In this document: positions 1-13,455 of the stretch, one piece after another
Position numbering within the stretch: the stretch's first letter is position 1
Layout: every line of letters starts with the position of its first letter
Assembly: GCF_034424215.1 (NCBI RefSeq)
Contig: NZ_CP139960.1
Span: 186,001 to 250,000, forward strand
DNA: 64,000 bases
DNA from: Niabella yanshanensis
GTDB taxonomy: Bacteria; Bacteroidota; Bacteroidia; Chitinophagales; Chitinophagaceae
Direction: 5' to 3'
Position numbers and translations under genes: made by a program
Notes under the pieces: model-generated
The model's input: only the letters and a program-made list of their open reading frames with translations
The model's database searches: none
Told to the model about the DNA's origin: nothing

Positions 1-948
1 GGAGGAGAGGAAGCTTCTGCAATGACCAAAAACACTATCGAAAACTATTTGCAGAACTTTAGTTTTGGCGCTCCGCTACAGTTATTGAAAGAAGCGTTTA
101 TTAATGCCAACAATGCTATTCATACGCGCCGCGCAGAGGCTAATTTACAAAGAATGAGCTGTGTGGCATCTATGGCGATATTGGATGCTGAGAAAGAGCT
201 GATGTATGTAGCCCATGTAGGAGATAGCAGGGGCTATGTTTTCAGGAACGGCGAGCTGATTAAAATAACCCAGGATCATTCAACGGTAGGTTTTAAAGAA
301 GACAAGGGCTTTCTTACAGAAGAGGAGGCTATGCTACATCCCCAGCGTAATGAGATCAGTAAGATGTTGGGGGAGTATATGATCGACGCCAACGACACCG
401 AAGGCTATTTTGATTTTTTCGAACATAGCTTTTTACCGGGTGATATCGTATTGTTTTGCAGTGATGGCCTTACCGACCTGGTGAACAGGCGAGGTATGAT
501 TCATATACTTTCAGGCAACGTAAGCTTAAAGGCAAAAGCACAACAATTAATTGATGCCGCTAATGAGTTGGGGGGCAAGGATAATATAACAATTGCGATA
601 GCAGGTTACGCAGCAAAAGCCCCCGCAAAGAAACGTGCTTATAAGAATACTATAGAAGTGCCCATTAGCGAAGAAGAAGACCTTTTAACTATTATGGATA
701 AAAAGCCTGCACGTAAAAAAAAACAGTGGTTGTGGTTACTCCCGGTAGCGTTCCTGGCGGGATTCCTGGCCAATTGGGCCGGAACAAAAAAAATCCTCCA
801 GCCCGCAAGCGCAGACCGGGTTGACACGGTTTTCATAAAAGACACGATACCTTATTATGATAGTTTGCGAAGAGCCGATACATTGATACAGGCCACAGAT
901 ACCATTTTCAGCGATACTGCCCGAAACCGTAATACAACCGGCTATTAA
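1..948 (+). CDS. PP2C-family Ser/Thr protein phosphatase, 5' end outside window
   Basis: Metal-dependent protein phosphatase. The reading frame is open from base 1 (GGEEAS, the GG-x-x-A part of the PP2C N-terminal metal motif), so the true start lies upstream and the first visible ATG at 22 is internal. Visible PP2C motifs in order are HVGDSRGYVFRNGEL, TQDHS, LFCSDGLTDLV and GGKDNITIAIA, which carry the metal-binding aspartates. After the catalytic domain comes a basic linker and one membrane segment (about 240-257 of the visible part), then a short extracytoplasmic tail. It is followed after 7 bp by the SEDS-PBP fusion gene and then by FHA and Ser/Thr kinase genes. The inferred role is reversing phosphorylation by the kinase at 6267. 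Confidence 0.93.
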   Translation, partial: GGEEASAMTKNTIENYLQNFSFGAPLQLLKEAFINANNAIHTRRAEANLQRMSCVASMAILDAEKELMYVAHVGDSRGYVFRNGELIKITQDHSTVGFKEDKGFLTEEEAMLHPQRNEISKMLGEYMIDANDTEGYFDFFEHSFLPGDIVLFCSDGLTDLVNRRGMIHILSGNVSLKAKAQQLIDAANELGGKDNITIAIAGYAAKAPAKKRAYKNTIEVPISEEEDLLTIMDKKPARKKKQWLWLLPVAFLAGFLANWAGTKKILQPASADRVDTVFIKDTIPYYDSLRRADTLIQATDTIFSDTARNRNTTGY

Positions 949-955
949 GATCATT

Positions 956-3900
956 ATGAAGAAAAAACAAAAGATTGAATTATACGCCCGTAATATAGAG
1001 CGTTTATTATTGGCTTTTGTAACGCTGATAATGGCAGTGATGGCGTTTAGTTATTATAACCATATCAAAAAAGAGTTGCAGCAGGCGGAGCAGGGATATG
1101 TCAACGGCACCGTTATTAATATAACAGCGCCACTAGAAGTAGAAAAACTGAAAAGAATATTTACAAAAGGAGGTTATTTTACTGATGCGCGCTATATCAA
1201 TTTTATAGCCGGTAATCTGAAACAAAAAGTTGATGAACAGCAGCATCTGCCTAACCTGGGCGCCTTGAATAAAGTCCCTATGTTACAGGATGCTGCTTCA
1301 TTTTTACAAAGCGGAAGCGAATCGGGTAAGCTCAGGTTTATTAATTCATTGGCAAATTTGGGTGTAGACTCAGCATTGTATGAGCAGGAGAAAACAGCTC
1401 CTCAAAAATACCCTTCTCAAGTTAAAGCCGGTGTCACTGAAACCGGTGTATCCATAGGCGGCACCATTCAATTAAATGTAAAAGAAGATACAAGGGTGGG
1501 TGGGGTATTGGTAAGGCTTACCCGTATTTACCCGGAAGCCTATTTTGATACTTTGCCCGGAGACGCCTCCTCTATACCAACAGAGTTTTACGCGCGCACT
1601 GATGGCGACGGGGACTATGAATTTACCAACCTGGATCCCGACGGAAATTACAGCGTAACTGCTATAAAGCCGGGCTTTAATTTCGGGCCTGCAAAAGGAA
1701 CTGCGGAAATTGGTTCAGACCGGATCTATGATTTTACGGGGAAGCCGCATCAGCTCAGGCTTTTGGATAAAGTAGAGTACCGGCAGATAAAAAATGACAA
1801 AGTACTTACCGTAAGAACGCCGGAGACGTTTCAGAAAGAGTTCTTTACTTATGTGATTTTATTTGTATTAGGTTTCTGGGTACTTCATACAGCGTTATAC
1901 CTGAAGAATTACCGCAGTGATCAGTTTATACTACCCCTGATCATGTTTATTACCGGTATTGGCATCATGGTGCTTTATAGCGTACAGGATCCTTTGCGGG
2001 ATGAAGTATATGGTACAGGGATGGCTAAATACATTGCCCTGGTGTTATTGCTGTTTGCTGTATTGGCATTTGTATTTAAGTCCAACCCAGTTAACCGGTT
2101 CTACCATTCCAAATGGTTTGACCCGGTTTATAACTGGTTTCCTTTTACCAATAAGTTAAAGGATCCCCGGGGTTTTACATGGTTACTGCTATCCATTGGT
2201 TTAATGCTTTTACTGGCTATGTTCGGCACCGGACCAGAGGGAAGTGGCGTGAAAGTGAACCTTTTCGGGTTCCAGGTAAGTGAACTGTCTAAGTACTTCA
2301 TGGTGGTATTCTTCGCTGCTTACTTTACAGTCAACGCCGGGTATTTCAGAAATATACCGGATAATAGATGGTTAACGAAGAATAACCTGTTGATGTTGGG
2401 CCTCTTCTTGTTTTTACTGGCTATTTACGCGGTACTGGGTGATTTGGGGCCGGCGGTGGTTTTATGTCTTACCTTTTTATTCTTTTACTCTTTTGCCAAA
2501 AATGAGTTCTTTGAAATGATGGTCACAGCGGCTTTATTTGGCGTATTGTTAATTTTCACCGGTAAATTCCTGAATACTCCTGAACATAATTATCTGCCCT
2601 GGCTGGCATTACTGGCATGCGGAGGAACTTTAGCCTATGCTTTTATTAAAAAGAAGCATGAATCGGTATTCTTCATGGTATTGATCATGTCATCATTTAT
2701 CTTACTCGCTACCTTACCCTTTAAATTTACACAAAGACTGGCCGATAGAAATGGCATGTTTGCCAATATATGGGAAAATCAACTGGTGGGCGGCGACCAG
2801 GTGGCACAGGGTGTATGGTCGTTAAATACGGGGGGGATAACGGGGCAGGGACTGGGAAAAGGTTTTTCTAATGTGATGCCGGCGCATCATACCGATATGA
2901 TCCTGCAAAGCATTGGTGAAGAGTTGGGAACGATCACTTTAATAGCATTGTTTTTTGCGTTAGGATTACTGATGTACCGGTGCATACTCGCGGCAAGGAG
3001 AACGGGTAAACCTTTTATGTTTTATATGATGTCGGGTATTGCTATGGCAACCATGCTACAGTTTATGCTGATTGCAGCCGGAACTTTAGGTTTATTACCG
3101 CTAACCGGAATTTCCGTTCCGTTTTTAAGTAAAGGGAATGCTGGTGTAATAGTAACATTAATAGCCTTTCTTTTGGTATTGATCATGTCAAACGAGAAAG
3201 GTGATGCAATAGAAATGGAATACGTAAAAAAACATTTTGATAATGTAAACGCCTATGCTATTCTTACCTTCTTTACAGTAGTATTGATCTTTACCGGCAG
3301 CCTGATCTGGTACCAGGCTAAATCTAATGAATATATAGTAAAACCTGCCTTGGTGCTGAACCGGCAAGGGGCCTGGCAGTATAGTTATAATCCCCGGATT
3401 GGCTTAATGCTCAGGGAAATAAAAGCGGGGGATATATTTGATAAGAACGGCGTGTTGCTGGCTACATCCGCCAAAAGCACTTTTCAAAAGAATAAAACCA
3501 AATTGGTCAATCTGGGCGCCAATACTTCGTTATACAATGAGCAGTTATCAAGGGAGCAGGATCGTTACTATCCATTTGGCTCCGATCTCCTGTTCTGGCT
3601 GGGTGATTACAACAAAGAGATAGCCCGTGAAGAAAGTGCGGGATATGCAGCTGAGTTCAGGCATTTTACAGCATTAAGGGGTTTTGAAGTTCGTTATACT
3701 ACTGTAGCACGTACCACCAACCGGTATAAGGAGAACAAGTTTTTACCTGAGACTACTGCCGACAATGAGCTGGCGCTTTATGATTACCGCGCTTTGGCTC
3801 CTTTTATAAAAGCAGGCAAAGAGAGCGCCTTAATAGCAGCACAAAATAATAAACAAAAAGATATATGGCTTTCGATAGATGTATTGATGAATGAGAAGAT

Positions 3901-5002
3901 CAATGCTATTATCCAAAGTCAGGCTCCCTATAAGAATTTCAGAACTTCAGTCGTAGCCATCAACTCAAAAACAGGCGATGTGTTATCTTCTGCTTCCAAC
4001 CCTTCGCCATCCTATAAAGATCAGAAACTGATCAGCAATATAGAGCCCGACGATTACCGTAATATTTACAAGCAGATATTCAACGACAGGACGGTAGTGC
4101 CACAGGATCTGGGTATTACTTATACGTCCCGGCCTGGATCAACCGTAAAGATCGTTGATGCTTACGCAGCTTTCAACCAGTATGGATTAGGAGCGGCTAA
4201 CTTTAGCTTCTTTGTTTATCCGGCAGAAGTGATCCGTGCGGACGAACCTTCCAATGAAAATGTTGATATGCGCAAAGCGATCGTTCGCTCCAGTAATGTA
4301 TATTTCATTAAGCTGGCTAATGAAAAAAAACTGCAGCCTTCGCTCTTTGAAATGTATGATATATTAGGCATGAATATTATTAACCGGGGTGGATTTAATT
4401 TTAGTAAACCGCTGGATTATAATAGGGAAGCTAGTTTTAAAGCCTGGGATGATTTTTTGGATAAGGGGCGCGGTATTTATAACACTAAAAGCGCGCGTTT
4501 GATGCATACGCGTAAACGCTTTCAATCCAATTACTCCAATATTGCCTGGGGCCAGGGTGAGTTGATGGCTACTCCTTTGCACCTGGCAAAAATGAGTGGT
4601 GGAATTGCGAATAAAGATTCTTTACAACCTTCCCGGTTTTTATATAAAGCATGGAACAAGCCCTTGCAACTGGAGCCGGCAGTGGCCTTGGCCAAAAATG
4701 CAGGTACAGCCGGCATCATTTCCGGGTTCCTGAAAGAACAATCCGCTAAAATAGCGGCAGCAACGGGTTTGGAAGTATATGGTAAAACGGGCAGTCCGGA
4801 GAGGGATAAGTTAATTAGGGTAAAAGACCAGACCATCCGAAAAAGAATTACGGATGCATGGTATACTTTTTATGTTCCGTCTCCAAAATTGGGCGCTCCT
4901 GTAGCTTTTGCCATCCGTATAGAAGAAATAGGTAACTCGGAGCACGCCAAACAATTGGCAATTGACATGCTGAAACAATTAAAGGCTGCCGGATATTTTT
5001 AG
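956..5002 (+). CDS. SEDS (FtsW/RodA) glycosyltransferase fused to class B penicillin-binding transpeptidase
   Basis: A single 1348-residue reading frame. Residues 13-35 are a membrane segment. About 165-256 is a carboxypeptidase-regulatory-like beta domain outside the membrane. About 300-745 is a polytopic SEDS domain with the family signatures GGITGQGLG, HTDMI, GEELG and TGISVPFLSKG. A membrane segment near 765-790 leads to the PBP part. All three penicillin-binding motifs are present: S1062-T-V-K1065, S1112-S-N and K1277-T-G. Known SEDS proteins polymerise lipid II and partner bPBPs cross-link the glycan, so this protein should do both. RodA or FtsW and PBP2 or FtsI are usually separate polypeptides. 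The gene is 7 bp after the phosphatase and upstream of the FHA and kinase genes, which suggests phospho-control of wall synthesis. I cannot say whether it serves elongation or division. Confidence 0.93.
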   Translation: MKKKQKIELYARNIERLLLAFVTLIMAVMAFSYYNHIKKELQQAEQGYVNGTVINITAPLEVEKLKRIFTKGGYFTDARYINFIAGNLKQKVDEQQHLPNLGALNKVPMLQDAASFLQSGSESGKLRFINSLANLGVDSALYEQEKTAPQKYPSQVKAGVTETGVSIGGTIQLNVKEDTRVGGVLVRLTRIYPEAYFDTLPGDASSIPTEFYARTDGDGDYEFTNLDPDGNYSVTAIKPGFNFGPAKGTAEIGSDRIYDFTGKPHQLRLLDKVEYRQIKNDKVLTVRTPETFQKEFFTYVILFVLGFWVLHTALYLKNYRSDQFILPLIMFITGIGIMVLYSVQDPLRDEVYGTGMAKYIALVLLLFAVLAFVFKSNPVNRFYHSKWFDPVYNWFPFTNKLKDPRGFTWLLLSIGLMLLLAMFGTGPEGSGVKVNLFGFQVSELSKYFMVVFFAAYFTVNAGYFRNIPDNRWLTKNNLLMLGLFLFLLAIYAVLGDLGPAVVLCLTFLFFYSFAKNEFFEMMVTAALFGVLLIFTGKFLNTPEHNYLPWLALLACGGTLAYAFIKKKHESVFFMVLIMSSFILLATLPFKFTQRLADRNGMFANIWENQLVGGDQVAQGVWSLNTGGITGQGLGKGFSNVMPAHHTDMILQSIGEELGTITLIALFFALGLLMYRCILAARRTGKPFMFYMMSGIAMATMLQFMLIAAGTLGLLPLTGISVPFLSKGNAGVIVTLIAFLLVLIMSNEKGDAIEMEYVKKHFDNVNAYAILTFFTVVLIFTGSLIWYQAKSNEYIVKPALVLNRQGAWQYSYNPRIGLMLREIKAGDIFDKNGVLLATSAKSTFQKNKTKLVNLGANTSLYNEQLSREQDRYYPFGSDLLFWLGDYNKEIAREESAGYAAEFRHFTALRGFEVRYTTVARTTNRYKENKFLPETTADNELALYDYRALAPFIKAGKESALIAAQNNKQKDIWLSIDVLMNEKINAIIQSQAPYKNFRTSVVAINSKTGDVLSSASNPSPSYKDQKLISNIEPDDYRNIYKQIFNDRTVVPQDLGITYTSRPGSTVKIVDAYAAFNQYGLGAANFSFFVYPAEVIRADEPSNENVDMRKAIVRSSNVYFIKLANEKKLQPSLFEMYDILGMNIINRGGFNFSKPLDYNREASFKAWDDFLDKGRGIYNTKSARLMHTRKRFQSNYSNIAWGQGELMATPLHLAKMSGGIANKDSLQPSRFLYKAWNKPLQLEPAVALAKNAGTAGIISGFLKEQSAKIAAATGLEVYGKTGSPERDKLIRVKDQTIRKRITDAWYTFYVPSPKLGAPVAFAIRIEEIGNSEHAKQLAIDMLKQLKAAGYF

Positions 5003-5075
5003 ATCGGTTTACAGGTTGATATGTTGATAGCATAAAGGGATGAATATGATGCGCCTGACTTTTCAACTTGTAAAC

Positions 5076-5095
5076 CCTGTCTGCCGACAGGCAGG
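5076..5095. repeat. Short palindromic element between genes
   Basis: CCTGTC-TGCC-GACAGG forms a 6-bp stem hairpin, followed by CAGG. It lies in the 117-bp gap between the SEDS-PBP gene and the FHA gene. No T-run follows, so it is not a clear terminator. It resembles the small interspersed palindromes scattered through Bacteroidota genomes. Confidence 0.4.
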
Positions 5096-5119
5096 TTTTC
5101 AATTTATAAACTTGACATC

Positions 5120-6007
5120 ATGAGCAACTGGTTTAAAAAAAAGCTACAACAACTATCGGATAAATTGAATGCGGATGAGGAACCGGCTCTTCCCCGGCAA
5201 TCCGAAGAAAATAATGTAGCGGTGGGTGCACAGACCGGCCGTACCGCATCATTAGATAACGTGGAAGAACTGAAAGAGGTGACAATTGGCGCCATCAACC
5301 GGGCCATTAAAATGATGGGCTATGGAAAGAGTACGGTATCTGGCTTTGCTTTTCATTCCCGGTTTGCCGATAACGCCATTGAGAATGTAGCGGTAAGTGC
5401 GCTTACTAAAGATGCCGATTTTGTTAAGCAGATCAAGCGTACTTTAAAATCAAGAAATATAGCTTATAAAGATAATTTGTCCATTGAGGTATTGAATAAT
5501 TCTGCTTTAACGGATAAGGTTACGCCTATCATTGACGGGGTGGGCGTAGAGGTATTGATACCGGGAGAATCACTGCGTAAAATAAAGGCGAGGGTTATCG
5601 CTACCGAAGGTATTACCTGGGAGCCGGAGTACCTGCTGGAACCATCGGGTAAGACTTATTTCATCGGCAGGTGTAAAAACCCCAAGATAGATAACGGTCC
5701 GAAGATTCATAACGACATAGCTTTCATAGGCAGAGAAGAAAAAGATGAAGAACAGTATCAGATCAACAACTATATCAGCCGGGCCCATGCGCAGATCGTT
5801 TTTGATAAAGAACTGGGAGCTTTTAAGATCTACCGTTCCAAATTCCTGAATAATCCGTCGCATAAAATTAAAATATACAATGCGGGCAGGAATGATTTTT
5901 TGGGAGTGAGCCTGAACCAGTCTGCAGTACCACATGTTTTAAAAGATGGTGATTCCATTTGTTTCAATGATAAAGTGGTACTGGAGTTTTACTTATTGGA
6001 AGGATAG
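5120..6007 (+). CDS. FHA-domain protein
   Basis: A 295-residue cytoplasmic protein with no signal peptide. Residues 1-60 are charged and low in complexity. About 55-150 is a small alpha-beta domain that I cannot name; a counterpart of the N-terminal domain of actinobacterial FhaA is possible but unproven. The C-terminal half is a forkhead-associated domain with YFIGR, the phosphothreonine-binding signature ISRAHAQI, and the late strand motif LKDGDSICF. FHA domains bind phosphothreonine peptides, so a partner or substrate of the kinase at 6267 is the natural inference. The gene sits between the cell-wall fusion enzyme and the kinase, all on the plus strand. Confidence 0.88.
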   Translation: MSNWFKKKLQQLSDKLNADEEPALPRQSEENNVAVGAQTGRTASLDNVEELKEVTIGAINRAIKMMGYGKSTVSGFAFHSRFADNAIENVAVSALTKDADFVKQIKRTLKSRNIAYKDNLSIEVLNNSALTDKVTPIIDGVGVEVLIPGESLRKIKARVIATEGITWEPEYLLEPSGKTYFIGRCKNPKIDNGPKIHNDIAFIGREEKDEEQYQINNYISRAHAQIVFDKELGAFKIYRSKFLNNPSHKIKIYNAGRNDFLGVSLNQSAVPHVLKDGDSICFNDKVVLEFYLLEG

Positions 6008-6266
6008 TAGAGTGGAGATGGAGACCAACAGTTCGTCAACCTGGCTTAAGTTGTGAAAAACTCCTTTGGAGACTCCGCCAGAGAATGTAGCGAAGTCGAA
6101 AGGTCTCTTTAGCAAAAATGACCATAGCGTTTCGAATTATATGAAAATAATGTATAGTGACAACAGAATCGTCACCTTGAGGGGGAAGGAAGTGGAGTCG
6201 AAAGGTTGCGATGGTTGAAAATGATGATAACTTTTGTGGCAATGAATGAATTAATTTTAAAGCTCA
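6008..6266. repeat. Intergenic stretch with degenerate interspersed repeat
   Basis: This 259-bp gap holds no gene. The core AGTCGAAAGGT occurs twice (about 6094-6104 and 6195-6205), both next to words like GACTCCG/GGAG. The pattern resembles the degenerate 'TCGAC-TCCGC' interspersed repeats common between Bacteroidota genes. No terminator was seen. Confidence 0.35.
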
Positions 6267-7655
6267 ATGCTAAGTAAGCGTGTTATGACCGAATTATCTA
6301 CATCATACGATATATTAAAAGTTTTAGGGCATGGTGGCTTTTCTGCGGTGTTTAAAGCACGTAGAAAAGCAGATGGCGATATTGTGGCCCTGAAACAGCT
6401 AGACCTGACTATTGAAAACGAAACCGAGAAAGAATACCGGGATTTCAAGGAAGAAGTGGATATTTTAAAAAAGTTGGATCATCCCAATATTGTAAAAGTT
6501 TACGAAGAGCATATACTGGATCATAAACCTTCCCTTGAAATGGAATTTGTTGACGGCGAAACGTTGGAGACGATCCTTAAAAAAGAGAAATATTTTTCGA
6601 TTAATGATGTGCTGGACCTGACAGAGCAGATAGCCGGCGCGCTAAACTACTGTCATCACTATTACCTGCCTGGCAATACGGTACAGCATACAGAGTCGGC
6701 ATTACTCAAGAGAAATGCCGTAATTCATAATGATATCAATCCTAAAAATATAATCCGTACACGTAACGGAGATGGTACTTATCGTTATGTACTCATCGAT
6801 TTTGGACTTTCTTTTACTGACCCCAATGCGGTAAGGCATAGTAAGAAGGAAGAGGGCATGGCTGAGTATAAGTCACCTGAAAAGTGGAGTGGCGCCATGG
6901 TCGACGCGCCTTCAGATATCTATAGTTTTGGTATCGTACTTTACGAAGCATTAACAGGTGTGGTTCCTTTTCCCGTAAAAGATTATAAGGTAGCCGGTGA
7001 TATGATTCAACTGGAGGAAAAGCACCGGAGCTCTGCTATACCCGATATGTGCAAAAGCAGGATTGCTATCCTGAGCGAAAATAATGTGGAAGCCGAATGC
7101 GATATCCCCGAATGGTTGGAAATGCTGGTGAAGAAATGCCTGGAAAAATTACCTCAGGATCGTTTTAAAACGGGCCGTGAATTAAGCCAGTTTTATTATG
7201 ATGGCATTGAGGGTAAAGTAGAGGTCCCGCAGGCAAAAGAGCCGGAGGCAGAAGTAATTGATATCGATCCTCTTGCTGCTAATACTTTAATTTCAACTGA
7301 GGGAGCTTACCTGGAAGTGGTGCCTAACTTTCTTACCAGGCCACAACGTTACGCTTTAATAAAAGACAATACCATAGTGGGGCGCTGGAACGACGGAGGT
7401 TCTGAGCAAGTAGCTGATTTTGCCATAAAAACCGGGGATAAGTTTATTTCAAAAAATCACTGCCAGATCATCAGAAGACAGCTCTCTGATGGTAGGGTCA
7501 TTTACCAGCTGGGCGATGCAGGACCGAGCAAAAACGGCACTTTTTATAACACGGAGCGCAACACACACAGGTTGGATCCCCATATTAAAGTATATCTGAA
7601 AGAAGGGGACTATTTCTGGATAGGTAATACCCAGGTCTTATTTCATCAGCAATGA
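6267..7655 (+). CDS. Ser/Thr protein kinase with C-terminal FHA domain
   Basis: A Hanks-type kinase with glycine loop GHGGFSAVFKA (21-31), ATP lysine K43 in VALK, a catalytic loop around D156, DFG at 178-180, and SPE at 203-205 in place of APE. The catalytic loop reads HNDINPKN rather than HRDLKPEN. The HRD arginine is therefore Asn, which implies no arginine-dependent activation-loop switch, and the usual catalytic-loop Lys is also Asn. A short insertion (about 133-150) precedes the loop. Residues about 350-462 form an FHA domain (VGR, ISKNHCQI, KNGTFYN). There is no membrane segment or PASTA domain. It ends the cluster that begins with the PP2C phosphatase. An alternative ATG is at 6285. 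Confidence 0.92.
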   Translation: MLSKRVMTELSTSYDILKVLGHGGFSAVFKARRKADGDIVALKQLDLTIENETEKEYRDFKEEVDILKKLDHPNIVKVYEEHILDHKPSLEMEFVDGETLETILKKEKYFSINDVLDLTEQIAGALNYCHHYYLPGNTVQHTESALLKRNAVIHNDINPKNIIRTRNGDGTYRYVLIDFGLSFTDPNAVRHSKKEEGMAEYKSPEKWSGAMVDAPSDIYSFGIVLYEALTGVVPFPVKDYKVAGDMIQLEEKHRSSAIPDMCKSRIAILSENNVEAECDIPEWLEMLVKKCLEKLPQDRFKTGRELSQFYYDGIEGKVEVPQAKEPEAEVIDIDPLAANTLISTEGAYLEVVPNFLTRPQRYALIKDNTIVGRWNDGGSEQVADFAIKTGDKFISKNHCQIIRRQLSDGRVIYQLGDAGPSKNGTFYNTERNTHRLDPHIKVYLKEGDYFWIGNTQVLFHQQ

Positions 7656-10217: not shown

Positions 10218-12140
10218 ATGAAGAAGTATTTTTTATTGGTAGGTTTTGTTATAACGTCTGGATGGGTAATGGCTCAAAGCGGCAGACTGGTCGCGGAAAA
10301 ATCAGGTAAAGGTGCTGTGCTGGTGCATCAGGTGCAGCCTAAGGAGGGATTGTATTCGATCAGCCGGGCGTATGGTGTAAAAGTAGCTGATATAGCAGCA
10401 GCGAACGGTTTTGATAAAGACAAAGGGTTGTCGATTGGACAGAAAATAAAAATTCCTTTAACTGCCGAAAATCTTTCTAAGAGAAAAGGTAAGACGCCCG
10501 TGTATTATGAAGTGTCTGCCAAAGAAACATTAACAAGCATCAGCAGCCGTTTCAATAAGGTATCCGTAAAGGATCTGAAAAGCTGGAATAAAATTAGCGG
10601 GGATGCGATTGGCAGGGAAAAAAGTATTATTGTAGGATATTTTGATGGAGCAGCTCCTGCAGCGGCTGCTGAAAAAGAAACAGATCAAAAAGGCAACACG
10701 GCTAAGACCGGCACCAAAGCTATGGGGCAGGCGTTGGTTAAAGGAACCAACATTAATATCCGCAAAGGACCGGCCACAGATCAGTCGGTAGTAGGAACAG
10801 CCCGGCAGGATGAGGTGTTGGATATTCTTAAAAAAGTGGATGATGAGTGGGCCTGGGTTCGTACTAAAGATGGTGTAGAAGGTTTTGTGGCTTCCCAGTT
10901 TTTGGAGACAATAGAAAGGAAAGCCGAAGCTAAGCCAACACGCACCGCAGCAAAAGCTATAGGCACTGCGACGGTTTCCGGCACTAATATCAATATAAGG
11001 AAAGGCCCTGCAACAGACCAGGAAGTGATTGGCGTAGCACAGCAGGATGAAATAGTGGATGTACTTAAAAAGGTAAATAGTGAATGGACCTCCATTCGTA
11101 CCAAAGACGGGACAGAAGGATTTGTGGCTTCCCAGTTTTTAGTTACAGGCGATAAAAAAGCAGCTGCTAAACCAGAAGCGCCTGTTGTTGTTAAGGCAAT
11201 AGGTAAGGCTACTGTTTCCGGGACAAATATTAATATTCGCAAAGGCGCTGCTACCGACCAGGAAGTGGTGGGTGTAGCGCAGCAGGATGAAGAAGTGGAA
11301 GTGCTAAAAAATGTGAATAGCGAATGGACTTCTATTCGTACCAAAGATGGGGTAGAAGGGTTCGTTGCTTCGAGGTTTTTACAAGCCGGGGGCAAGAAGG
11401 CTGAACCGGCGAAAGCTGTTGCAGCTACCAAAACAGCCACCGCCTACGGCACCCGCATCAATATCCGTAAAGGTCCTGCTACCGACCAGGAAGTGATAGG
11501 TATGGCGCAGGCCGAAGAAGTGTTGACTTATATTCGTAAGGTAAATGACGAGTGGTCAGAAGTGCGCAATGCCGATGGCTCTGTAACTGGTTTTGTTGCA
11601 ACCCGGTTCCTGTCATTTGATGGACAGCCTTCGGTAGCCGCAGTAGAAGCGGAGGCGTTGGCGAAATCCCAGGCTGAAGCCAACAAAGCAGCTGAGGAAG
11701 CAGCGGCTGCAGAAAGGGCGGTAGCAGACGCGAGGAAAAGAGAAGAAGATCAAAAAGCCGAAAGCCTGGTATCGGAAAAAATAACAGCCCGCAATGATGC
11801 TGAAACCTCTACGCCTGACGAGGCTGGTTATTTTAAAGCAGATTACCTGAAGATGGTGAATCCCAACCTGGCTTATGAAAAAACCTTTGCTTCGGGTATT
11901 TTTAAAACAGATCGTGGCTGGAATGATGGGAAATATTATTTGCTAATGGACAATGCGGCTCCTGGTAGCCTGGTAAAACTGACCAATCCGGCCAATAACA
12001 AAGTGGTGTATGCAAAGGTGCTAGGCAAAATGAAAGGTATTCAATACAGCGAGGGATTTGATATACGGATCAGCGAAGCGGCAGCTCAAAAGCTCCAGAT
12101 TGGTAATACCGATAAGTTTAATGTAACGGTGACCTACTAA
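10218..12140 (+). CDS. Exported LysM protein with four SH3 repeats
   Basis: Signal peptide at residues 1-19 (cut after WVMAQ). A LysM domain at about 35-80 (LYSISRAYGVKVADIAAANG) is followed by a second weaker LysM at 95-140. Four bacterial SH3 repeats follow at about 172-229, 251-308, 331-388 and 407-465, each with GTNINIRKGPATDQ, EW and DG.EGFVAS.FL. An Ala/Glu-rich coiled coil (475-520) precedes a C-terminal domain (545-640) resembling an RlpA-like double-psi barrel. LysM and SH3b domains bind peptidoglycan, so an envelope-bound wall-binding role is inferred. A weak promoter (TTTG at 10163, TAAATTCG at 10183) precedes the gene. Confidence 0.88.
   Translation: MKKYFLLVGFVITSGWVMAQSGRLVAEKSGKGAVLVHQVQPKEGLYSISRAYGVKVADIAAANGFDKDKGLSIGQKIKIPLTAENLSKRKGKTPVYYEVSAKETLTSISSRFNKVSVKDLKSWNKISGDAIGREKSIIVGYFDGAAPAAAAEKETDQKGNTAKTGTKAMGQALVKGTNINIRKGPATDQSVVGTARQDEVLDILKKVDDEWAWVRTKDGVEGFVASQFLETIERKAEAKPTRTAAKAIGTATVSGTNINIRKGPATDQEVIGVAQQDEIVDVLKKVNSEWTSIRTKDGTEGFVASQFLVTGDKKAAAKPEAPVVVKAIGKATVSGTNINIRKGAATDQEVVGVAQQDEEVEVLKNVNSEWTSIRTKDGVEGFVASRFLQAGGKKAEPAKAVAATKTATAYGTRINIRKGPATDQEVIGMAQAEEVLTYIRKVNDEWSEVRNADGSVTGFVATRFLSFDGQPSVAAVEAEALAKSQAEANKAAEEAAAAERAVADARKREEDQKAESLVSEKITARNDAETSTPDEAGYFKADYLKMVNPNLAYEKTFASGIFKTDRGWNDGKYYLLMDNAAPGSLVKLTNPANNKVVYAKVLGKMKGIQYSEGFDIRISEAAAQKLQIGNTDKFNVTVTY
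10731..11612 (+). repeat. Four tandem SH3-coding repeats
   Basis: The SH3 units repeat every 76-80 codons and are highly similar at the DNA level, especially units 2 and 3. The composition leaves a long antisense open frame (10781-11440) that is only a shadow. Units 2 and 3 are the most recently duplicated, judging by near-identical protein sequence. Confidence 0.85.
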
Positions 12141-12150
12141 AGACCGGAGT

Positions 12151-13308
12151 TTAGATATCGCCTATATCTCTCCAGGATATAATACTGGTATGCTCGTTTA
12201 ACGGTTCCGTTTTATTACCGCCGTAAACGAGCATGCTTTGCTTATGGTAGAAATTATTTTTCTGCCAGTAACGAATTCCTGAAAACATAGATGCATTAGT
12301 TGCGTGGGCCGCTTTTATTTCAATAGCCAGCGGCTGACCATCTTTCTCGTATACCAGGTCGATTTCATTTCCCGCACTATCCCTAAAGTAATACATCTCG
12401 CCTGATAGCCCCTGGTTAGTGTTGTTCTTCTTTATTTCGCTGATGATCCAATTTTCAAAAAGAGCTCCATAGGCATTGTGTTTTTTCAGGTGGGTTATAT
12501 TGGGTATGCCCAGTAAACGGCATAATAATCCCGTATCATGAAAGTAGAGTTTTGGGCTTTTTAATATGCGCTTATTTAAATTATTATACCAGGGTTGCAG
12601 TAAAAAGATAACGTAACTGCTTTCCAACACGCCGAGCCAGGACAGTATCGTTTTGGTGTCTACCCCCACCTGTTTAGCCAGTTCTTCCCTGTTCAATATC
12701 TGGCCGGCGTAATTAGCACATAAAAATAAAAACCGGTTAAAGGCCGCCAGGTTATTAATGTTTTTCAGTAGGCGAACGTCGCGCTGTACATAAGTTTGTA
12801 TATAGCTATTCATCCATATTTCGGGTTTCAGCTTTTCCTGCCATATTTCCGGGTATCCGCCGTTAAGGATATGTTTTAAGAAATTATCTTCGGCCAGTTG
12901 GGCATCTTTTAACTCGGCATAGCTTAAGGGCAGCAATGAGATATAGCCCGCGCGACCGGCAAGTGATTGAGATATCTGTTCCTGTAACAGGAAATTATTA
13001 GAACCGGTTAAAATGAACTGGCCCCGTTTAGTGCTTTTATCAAGAACTGTCTGCAGGTAGCGAAGTAGTTCAGGTACGCGTTGTACTTCATCAAGTATGG
13101 CGCCCCTTTTGTTTTGGTTCAAAAAATTTTCAATATTCTTCAGAACTTGATGTTCGGTAGCCGGACTTTCGAAGTTGAAATAAGCTTTGTCGGGGCATAA
13201 AAGCCGGCTTAATGTGGTCTTGCCGCTTTGCCTGGGTCCGGTAACACACAGGGCCCTGAACTGGTTTAGAGATTCTTTAGCTGATTGTAAAATTGCTCTT
13301 TCAATCAT
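12151..13308 (-). CDS. AAA+ ATPase with DUF4143 domain
   Basis: Walker A is VTGPRQSGKTTLSRL near residue 28 and Walker B is GAILDEVQRV. These are followed by the sensor FILTGSNNFLL and the AAA segment LLPLSYAEL. The C-terminal DUF4143 part includes YIQTYVQRDVRLL, LYFHDTGLLCRLLG, and a nuclease-like core EIDLVYEKDGQPLAIEIKAA, with the ExK pattern of the PD-(D/E)XK fold. Family members are common in bacteria and their role is unsettled. The start at 13308 (MIERAIL) is preferred over a longer frame to 13449, because the longer N-terminus is only the translation of the upstream tandem repeat. The gene is convergent with the LysM gene. Confidence 0.88.
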   Translation of the reverse strand: MIERAILQSAKESLNQFRALCVTGPRQSGKTTLSRLLCPDKAYFNFESPATEHQVLKNIENFLNQNKRGAILDEVQRVPELLRYLQTVLDKSTKRGQFILTGSNNFLLQEQISQSLAGRAGYISLLPLSYAELKDAQLAEDNFLKHILNGGYPEIWQEKLKPEIWMNSYIQTYVQRDVRLLKNINNLAAFNRFLFLCANYAGQILNREELAKQVGVDTKTILSWLGVLESSYVIFLLQPWYNNLNKRILKSPKLYFHDTGLLCRLLGIPNITHLKKHNAYGALFENWIISEIKKNNTNQGLSGEMYYFRDSAGNEIDLVYEKDGQPLAIEIKAAHATNASMFSGIRYWQKNNFYHKQSMLVYGGNKTEPLNEHTSIISWRDIGDI

Positions 13309-13311
13309 TAA

Positions 13312-13405
13312 ATTCCATTTTTGCAAAAATATGTAAAAATGGAGTAAGATTCCATTTTTGCAAAAATATGTAAAAATGGAGTAAGATTCCATTTTTACAA
13401 AAAAG
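13312..13405 (-). promoter_or_regulatory. Tandem 37-bp repeat with promoter-like boxes and palindrome
   Basis: Two full copies of a 37-bp unit (13312-13348 and 13349-13385) and a partial third (from 13386) lie directly upstream of the DUF4143 ATPase. Each full unit has the inverted repeat CCATTTTT...AAAAATGG. On the minus strand each also has TATTTTTG, which fits the -7 consensus TAnnTTTG. The arrangement suggests a multi-copy operator or promoter, possibly autoregulatory. Confidence 0.6.
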
Positions 13406-13455
13406 GCTTCAAAAGATTTAAAAAGATAGTACTGTAAAAGGCCAACCAAATTAAG

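Follow-up and report, generated by a model that had tools for sequence, protein, structure and literature searches.

A SEDS-penicillin-binding protein fusion among Ser/Thr phospho-signalling genes in Niabella yanshanensis and other Bacteroidota

The window analyzed here, 64,000 nucleotides of Niabella yanshanensis (contig NZ_CP139960.1, bases 186001-250000 of a genome that forms one contig of 5,543,186 bases), opens on a gene cluster that joins a peptidoglycan synthase to proteins of serine/threonine (Ser/Thr) phospho-signalling. The central gene encodes a SEDS module and a class B penicillin-binding protein (PBP) module in one open frame, and around it stand a PP2C phosphatase, two FHA proteins, and two Ser/Thr kinases. 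Relatives of this arrangement occur in several families of Bacteroidota, with the catalytic residues of the synthase retained. We consider it probable that the cluster is a self-contained cassette, in which a dedicated accessory peptidoglycan synthase is placed under phospho-Ser/Thr control; enzyme activity, the phosphorylation of any member, the direction of control, and the trigger are what we infer from these sequences.

The cluster and its synthase

An earlier note, made from the window alone, had described a PP2C phosphatase, a SEDS-PBP fusion, an FHA protein, and a kinase-FHA protein as adjacent, in that order, and on the same strand; coordinates and Pfam matches bear this out. The cluster is nevertheless one of six genes and not four, a transmembrane kinase and a second FHA protein (FHA2) lying upstream. 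The window begins inside the PP2C gene, whose start falls 147 bases before it, and this truncation is why the first kinase and FHA2 had been missed. The complete order is kinase, FHA2, PP2C, SEDS-PBP, FHA1, kinase-FHA. The features are as follows, L006 denoting locus coordinates of this cluster that include the sequence upstream of the window.

L006 8703-10235, upstream of the window: transmembrane Ser/Thr kinase, 510 amino acids, membrane segment 302-320
L006 10293-11237, upstream of the window: FHA2, an FhaA-type FHA protein, 314 amino acids
1..948, + strand: 3' part of the PP2C Ser/Thr phosphatase (Pfam PP2C); whole gene L006 11854-12948, 364 amino acids
956..5002, + strand: SEDS-PBP fusion, 1348 amino acids, single open frame (Pfam FTSW_RODA_SPOVE and Transpeptidase)
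995..1897, + strand: N-terminal part of the fusion, with membrane segments 14-32 and 296-314 (hydropathy) around a domain of about 260 residues
1913..3205, + strand: SEDS glycosyltransferase module, residues about 320-750, with Asp647
3236..4999, + strand: class B PBP module, residues about 761-1348, with S1062-x-x-K1065, S1112-x-N1114, and K1277-T-G
5120..6007, + strand: FHA1, an N-terminal domain of unknown type and a C-terminal FHA domain at about residues 160-290
6267..7655, + strand: kinase-FHA, Ser/Thr kinase at residues 14-301 and C-terminal FHA at 378-453 (Pfam Pkinase and FHA)

The claim that the equivalents of rodA and pbpA are here a single gene holds, SEDS and PBP sharing one open frame. 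Both modules score well above their Pfam cut-offs (FTSW_RODA_SPOVE, PF01098, 105.2 bits against 26.4; Transpeptidase, 62.6 against 22.1). Asp647 aligns with D262 of Escherichia coli RodA and D297 of FtsW, described as the SEDS catalytic Asp (PMC8765783, PMC10449877, PMC6207328), and is Asp in all 51 fusions compared; S1062 aligns with S330 of E. coli PBP2. The PBP motif positions S, K, S, N, K, and G are identical in 51/51, and T1278 is kept in 47, with Ser in the other 4 (KSG). The fusion reaches neither NCBIfam equivalog (ftsW, 127.2 of 337.5 bits; rodA, 89.8 of 336.7), none of the five fusions scanned out of 51 attains the cut-off of a RodA, FtsW, or PBP2 model, and matches to PBP2a-type models are far under cut-off. 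In a comparison of SEDS modules, six from fusions group together, apart from two FtsW and two RodA. The N-terminal domain contains a weak CarboxypepD_reg-like stretch (27.0 bits, under the 32.3 cut-off). SEDS proteins have a usual topology, on the basis of which this domain would lie on the outer side.

Over the best segment the fusion is 91% identical to that of Niabella hibiscisoli, also of the Chitinophagaceae; the other three loci from the same scan likewise belong to Niabella, and fusions of other Chitinophagaceae genera are 34-39% identical to this one. Two variants were seen: in L056 (7762-11916), PP2C, SEDS, and PBP form a natural triple fusion in one open frame of 1384 amino acids, and L057 (5165-9088) is an additional SEDS-PBP fusion of one genome, strongly diverged in sequence, about 4 kb downstream of a kinase.

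The N. yanshanensis genome holds two further SEDS genes, one in the mur cluster and one beside mreBCD and PBP2, which from gene order and sequence we take to be FtsW and RodA, respectively. Two such stand-alone SEDS genes (counted by eye) accompany the fusion in all 30 carriers tested, out of 52 found. The fusion is an accessory third SEDS synthase and not the main elongation machinery, so the cluster does not control the main wall machinery as its counterpart does in mycobacteria. Whole-genome searches gave two PF00069 kinase matches, one PF00481 match (the only phosphatase family covered), and one PF00498 match. Every one of these lies within the cluster, and the PF00498 match belongs to the FHA domain of the kinase-FHA protein, FHA1 and FHA2 both escaping that model. 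Six Niabella genomes have 2, 2, 4, 3, 2, and 4 kinase matches, some being pieces of one gene, and 1, 1, 3, 1, 1, and 1 PP2C matches. Across Chitinophagaceae, PF00069 is matched in 150/294 genomes.

Between FHA2 and PP2C of this genome lies a broken gene piece of 23S_rRNA_IVP type (L006 11427-11600; 78.5 bits over 58 amino acids) that looks like an insertion into the cassette; the gap between the two genes, 616 bases, is the longest of 44 measured.

Recurrence across Bacteroidota

The fusion query found both modules in one frame in 15 of 395 Bacteroidota genomes; some match was returned in 173, and the others listed were short stretches aligned with SEDS or PBP genes that stand alone. With an FHA2 alignment, 16 of the 395 gave a match, with E below 1e-70 in the same 15 genomes as the fusion and 1e-7 in one more, and the best FHA2 match in each of the 15 sits at the fusion locus. 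Within Chitinophagaceae the fusion is present in 40/294 genomes and 15/101 genera, with one match each. We compared 51 loci, namely 37 of the 40 from Chitinophagaceae (three at contig ends or fragmentary were left out), 13 from other families, and one on a plasmid; the family labels used below (f3, f10, f19) and the term class are labels of the genome search.

FHA2 lies upstream of the fusion in 48/51 loci, two of the misses being contig ends and one, L057, real, and FHA1 lies downstream in 50/51, L057 again being the miss. PP2C is a separate gene in 45/51 and part of the triple fusion in L056; L052, L053, L054, and L057 have none, nor does L092, which is at a contig end. Within the window's class 44/45 cassettes include a kinase gene, the exception, L083, falling at a contig end; in the six loci from elsewhere in the phylum no kinase is directly adjacent. 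Cassette genes share one strand in 51/51 loci, and overlaps or gaps of a few bases are common: measured from first possible start codons, PP2C and the fusion overlap or lie within 16 bases in 25/27 cases, and PP2C and kinase within 5 bases in 17/18. Recurrence in 51 loci rules out chance adjacency and shows the genes to be conserved together elsewhere; a lack of such conservation was named in the earlier note as one result that would refute its reading. The fusion is followed by FHA1 almost everywhere; the exact order PP2C, SEDS/PBP, FHA, kinase is found in just 25/51 loci, the kinase being elsewhere, or a gene missing or cut off, in the others.

In a fusion tree (n=51, quick method) the window's class divides into a Niabella group (6 loci), a second group of 18 (three f10 loci and 15 from Chitinophagaceae), and a third of 21 (five f3 loci and 16 from Chitinophagaceae). 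One of the f10 loci, to which we assigned that label ourselves, is a plasmid of Spirosoma. Chitinophagaceae account for at least three changes on the tree; long branches were flagged, and the deep joins are therefore unsure. Gene order tracks the groups, with a kinase directly before the fusion in the 18 loci of the second group and PP2C in that position in 27 others.

In Spirosoma oryzicola a plasmid of 137 kb (NZ_CP089545.1; L058 6408-16964), typed as non-mobilizable, carries the whole cassette. A plasmid search returned one record with most of the fusion and two with weak partial matches, and a search of viral contigs gave no relative. Taken with the tree and the gene orders of its groups, patchy carriage and the plasmid copy suggest either transfer or paralogous lineages of long standing that have undergone extensive loss. 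Among flanking frames of at least 100 amino acids, no family is common to more than 5/21 genus labels; those listed among the families of three or more genus labels resemble, by eye, two-component, TonB-type, transporter, and other unrelated proteins. We considered a type VI secretion kinase-FHA-phosphatase module and rejected it on this low sharing of flanking families, no dedicated search for secretion genes having been made.

Two observations on individual lineages may be added. In three Niabella loci (L009, L011, and L012) most cluster genes are each broken up over a number of short frames, a pattern suggestive of faulty assembly and not of decay. A small protein of 151-179 amino acids, with a start that resembles a membrane segment by eye, adjoins the cassette in eight loci of four genera (L081, L084, L086-L090, L093) and is possibly an extra cassette part in its lineage.

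Phosphatase, kinases, and FHA proteins

The whole PP2C gene product exceeds the Pfam PP2C cut-off (61.0 bits) and scores 184.5 bits against the NCBIfam Stp1/IreP model, under its cut-off of 230. Seven metal-binding or catalytic positions checked are identical in 45/45 cassette PP2Cs, and 44/45 have a hydrophobic segment after residue 240, probably a single membrane segment with a short tail.

The kinase-FHA protein passes both Pfam cut-offs (Pkinase, 146.8 bits; FHA, 31.9), and hydropathy revealed no membrane segment in it. Catalytic Asp and DFG are present in 68/68 kinases and the Lys in 67/68, with one gap. Among 65 cassette kinases, a C-terminal membrane segment is present in 59 and an FHA tail in the remaining six; all six FHA tails (of 68 kinases) are in Niabella. 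The attachment of FHA to the kinase, which the earlier note had listed as a difference from the actinobacterial set, is thus right for this genus, and the usual form elsewhere is a transmembrane kinase. The reported lack of PASTA domains is confirmed by Pfam for both kinases of this genome; none was found in the four kinases scanned out of 68, these two included, and the PASTA matches of this genome are located outside the cluster.

FHA1 of this genome scores 16.9 bits against Pfam FHA, under the 20.7 cut-off. With the limit set at E 10, FHA is matched by every one of the 17 proteins in its alignment (best 2.5e-8), and its assignment as an FHA protein is therefore right. GR, SxxH, and NG are given as the phospho-Thr-binding motifs of FHA domains in PMC1262709, and the FHA1 pocket G183, R184, S220, R221, and H223 (GR, SRxH) is identical in 50/50. 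FHA2 is more variable. The full GR and SRxH occur in 8/51 copies (five out-of-class cassette copies and three paralogues away from cassettes), and the 17 second-group copies keep Arg and Ser and not the rest of the pattern, so that both residues are retained in 22/48 cassette copies. The remainder have lost one or both; in Niabella the pocket Ser is gone. The role of FHA2 may accordingly differ between lineages.

Whole profiles of FHA1 and FHA2 align mainly across the FHA domain, and common ancestry of their N-terminal domains was not evident (hhalign probability 0.2%). When FHA2 and FHA1 profiles were searched against solved structures, FHA domains came out on top, one of them being TB39.8 (E 0.06 and 0.5, respectively), which we take to be FhaA; weaker unrelated proteins were also listed. 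For the FHA2 N-terminal domain the one structural match (E 0.94) was not credible, and a structure prediction of FHA2 from two alignment rows, with a mean predicted local distance difference test score of 29.8, was discarded. A HEPN_Swt1 domain was found in two of the 17 FHA1 members (best E 1.5e-25), taken to be L055 12435-13805 and L056 11979-13253 because these alone have a long N-terminus, and also in L095 7521-8825, an FHA2-like paralogue away from the cassette. An association between such FHA proteins and a domain of HEPN type was unexpected.

Kinship, mechanism, and alternatives

A conserved linkage of pstP, rodA, pbpA, and a PASTA kinase throughout Actinobacteria, and of pknB-fhaA in a subset of Firmicutes, is described in PMC6554272, and the operon of Mycobacteriales is given as fhaA, fhaB, rodA, pbpA, pknA, and pknB plus the phosphatase (PMC11898655). 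The cassette resembles a compact version of this actinobacterial wall-control locus (fhaA-fhaB-pstP-rodA-pbpA-pknA-pknB): both comprise two FHA proteins, a membrane PP2C, a SEDS protein, a class B PBP, and two Ser/Thr kinases. The differences are that SEDS and PBP are here one protein with an added N-terminal domain, that the kinases scanned lack PASTA, that the synthase is third and accessory, that carriage is patchy and once on a plasmid, and that the FHA2 pocket is altered in 26/48 copies. Since PASTA kinases and a role in main elongation are not found, we do not class the cassette as a member of that locus.

Kinship was approached through the Pfam domain FhaA_N. Among 16 FHA2 members, two from divergent loci exceed the cut-off of 25 (27.4 and 26.5 bits) and three fall under it (23.7, 19.9, and 18.3). 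In whole genomes the domain was matched in 5/287 Bacteroidota, each of them a carrier whose cassette gave a match (over cut-off in three), and in 1/14 controls, Corynebacterium glutamicum. This distribution makes kinship with the actinobacterial locus likely and points to homology, not to superficial similarity; common ancestry of FHA2 with FhaA is likely, a claim limited to this part and not extended to the whole cluster. It speaks against convergence, in which widespread signalling genes would have collected beside a wall synthase without actinobacterial common ancestry; this we regard as somewhat unlikely, and in favor of convergence are the want of PASTA in the four cassette kinases scanned, the failure of five fusions to reach any RodA, FtsW, or PBP2 cut-off, and FhaA_N matches away from the cassette in three carriers. 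The suggestion of the earlier note that phospho-signalling control of wall synthesis arose or was retained here in another form is partly supported, actinobacterial kinship being likely; the synthase is a third SEDS enzyme and not the main wall machinery.

Other known systems share parts of this plan. Natural SEDS-PBP fusions, which also carry both activities in one frame, are reported to exist in PMC10449877, with citation of the Rhodococcus RHA1 genome paper; the present fusions have the extra N-terminal domain and belong to a phospho-signalling cassette across several families. Artificial SEDS-PBP fusions are described as active (PMC6207328, PMC10449877). The RodA-PBP2 and FtsW-FtsI pairs of E. 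coli comprise the same two modules and catalytic residues, but as separate genes, and no Ser/Thr kinase, PP2C, or FHA gene is annotated in the stretches examined. Kinase-phosphatase pairs of PknB/Stk1 and Stp1/PstP type give the best NCBIfam matches of cassette kinases and PP2C; the cassette differs in lacking PASTA and in not reaching the model cut-offs. What is new is a fused synthase that recurs in several Bacteroidota families together with a putative phospho-circuit of its own, the type of locus itself being known; we recognized no description of the cassette in Bacteroidota in searches of open-licence papers.

We propose the following mechanism. One polypeptide would combine the outer N-terminal domain, held on two membrane segments, with a glycan polymerase of the SEDS family and a transpeptidase of class B. 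The transmembrane kinase, whose outer C-terminal domain is the likely sensor, would phosphorylate Thr residues of cluster members, as might the cytoplasmic kinase with its own FHA reader, and the membrane-anchored PP2C would reverse this. FHA1, with its pocket residues intact, could dock on the phosphosites and so assemble or switch the synthase, whereas FHA2, an FhaA relative without the pocket Ser in this genus, may be a scaffold. The trigger would probably be envelope stress or growth stage rather than routine growth. The docking role is modelled by analogy on mycobacteria, where, under PknB, phosphorylated CwlM is described as binding FhaA and the nonphosphorylated form as binding MurJ (PMC6180346).

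The same gene neighborhood could be read otherwise. Signalling genes and synthase might share an operon for common expression alone, the kinases acting chiefly elsewhere and the fusion being a constitutive spare; in favor of this are the six loci outside the main class with no directly adjacent kinase. We hold this improbable, given that FHA2 and FHA1 flank the fusion almost invariably, that no strong FHA2 match (E below 1e-70) was found without the fusion in 395 genomes, that L056 has PP2C and synthase in a single frame, and that the kinase shifts position between lineages yet is kept in 44/45 class cassettes, with the miss at a contig end. A mobile tolerance trait, in which a spare SEDS-PBP would come into use once beta-lactams or another wall stress had put the housekeeping enzymes out of action and the kinases would act as stress sensor, accords with the patchy carriage (40/294 in the family, 15/395 in the phylum), the Spirosoma plasmid copy, the lack of widely shared flanking families (none in more than 5/21 genus labels), and the third SEDS enzyme in 30/30 carriers tested. 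It is unlikely as the principal explanation, because identities of 34-39% between genera with catalytic residues kept suggest long-standing use and matches to PBP2a-type models are so poor; it is compatible with our proposal as the physiological purpose of the cassette. A reading of the fusion as an inactive or merely regulatory pseudo-enzyme is favored by no observation and is hardly credible in view of the catalytic residues of both modules in 51/51 fusions (one position being Thr or Ser).

Several results weigh against the proposal of a phospho-controlled cassette. Confinement of the kinases to the cluster, as in N. yanshanensis, does not hold generally: two other Niabella genomes (G502 and G658) have kinases outside the cassette. 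In Chitinophagaceae, PF00481 is matched in 64/294 genomes, 31 of these without a fusion match, and has no match in 7/40 carriers. L057 is without both FHA neighbors, the main loci of three f19 genomes have neither PP2C nor kinase near the fusion, and the kinase is not directly adjacent in L055 and L056; with such loci, kinases are not an invariant part of the cassette. The Niabella and third groups (26/48 cassette copies of FHA2) have lost the Arg of GR, the Ser of SxxH, or both. As to kinship, of the ten FhaA_N matches obtained in the phylum five, including one over cut-off, are found in carrier genomes at sites other than the cassette, and the domain was not detected in the window's own FHA2, which is linked to the matching members through the alignment, at 16-24% identity to other genera.

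In mycobacteria, the wiring of Ser/Thr phosphorylation to SEDS-PBP synthases is blurred by the number of kinases, the essentiality of genes, and the separateness of the proteins. In the present genome a single protein makes up the synthase and the sole PF00069 kinases and PF00481 phosphatase are its neighbors, so that the question is directly testable in soil bacteria that are harmless, and since the cell has other such synthases, deletion of this one should be viable. The FhaA link bears on whether phospho-control predates the split of the phyla or passed between them. Tentatively, and with less than even expectation, we suggest that an ancient wall-control module of FhaA, PP2C, SEDS, PBP, and kinases, already described in Actinobacteria and part of the Firmicutes, has survived in the Gram-negative Bacteroidota in the form of a compact cassette that can be transferred, with polymerase, crosslinker, and outer regulatory domain in one protein, which in some species is the whole Hanks-type kinase/PP2C system. 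If so, the cassette would be a complete natural phospho-circuit with a single wall synthase as its output.

Beyond the cluster, the window encodes at 10218-12140 a protein with LysM and four bacterial SH3 stretches, its start resembling a signal sequence by eye, and at 12151-13449, on the minus strand, an AAA_14/DUF4143 ATPase gene.

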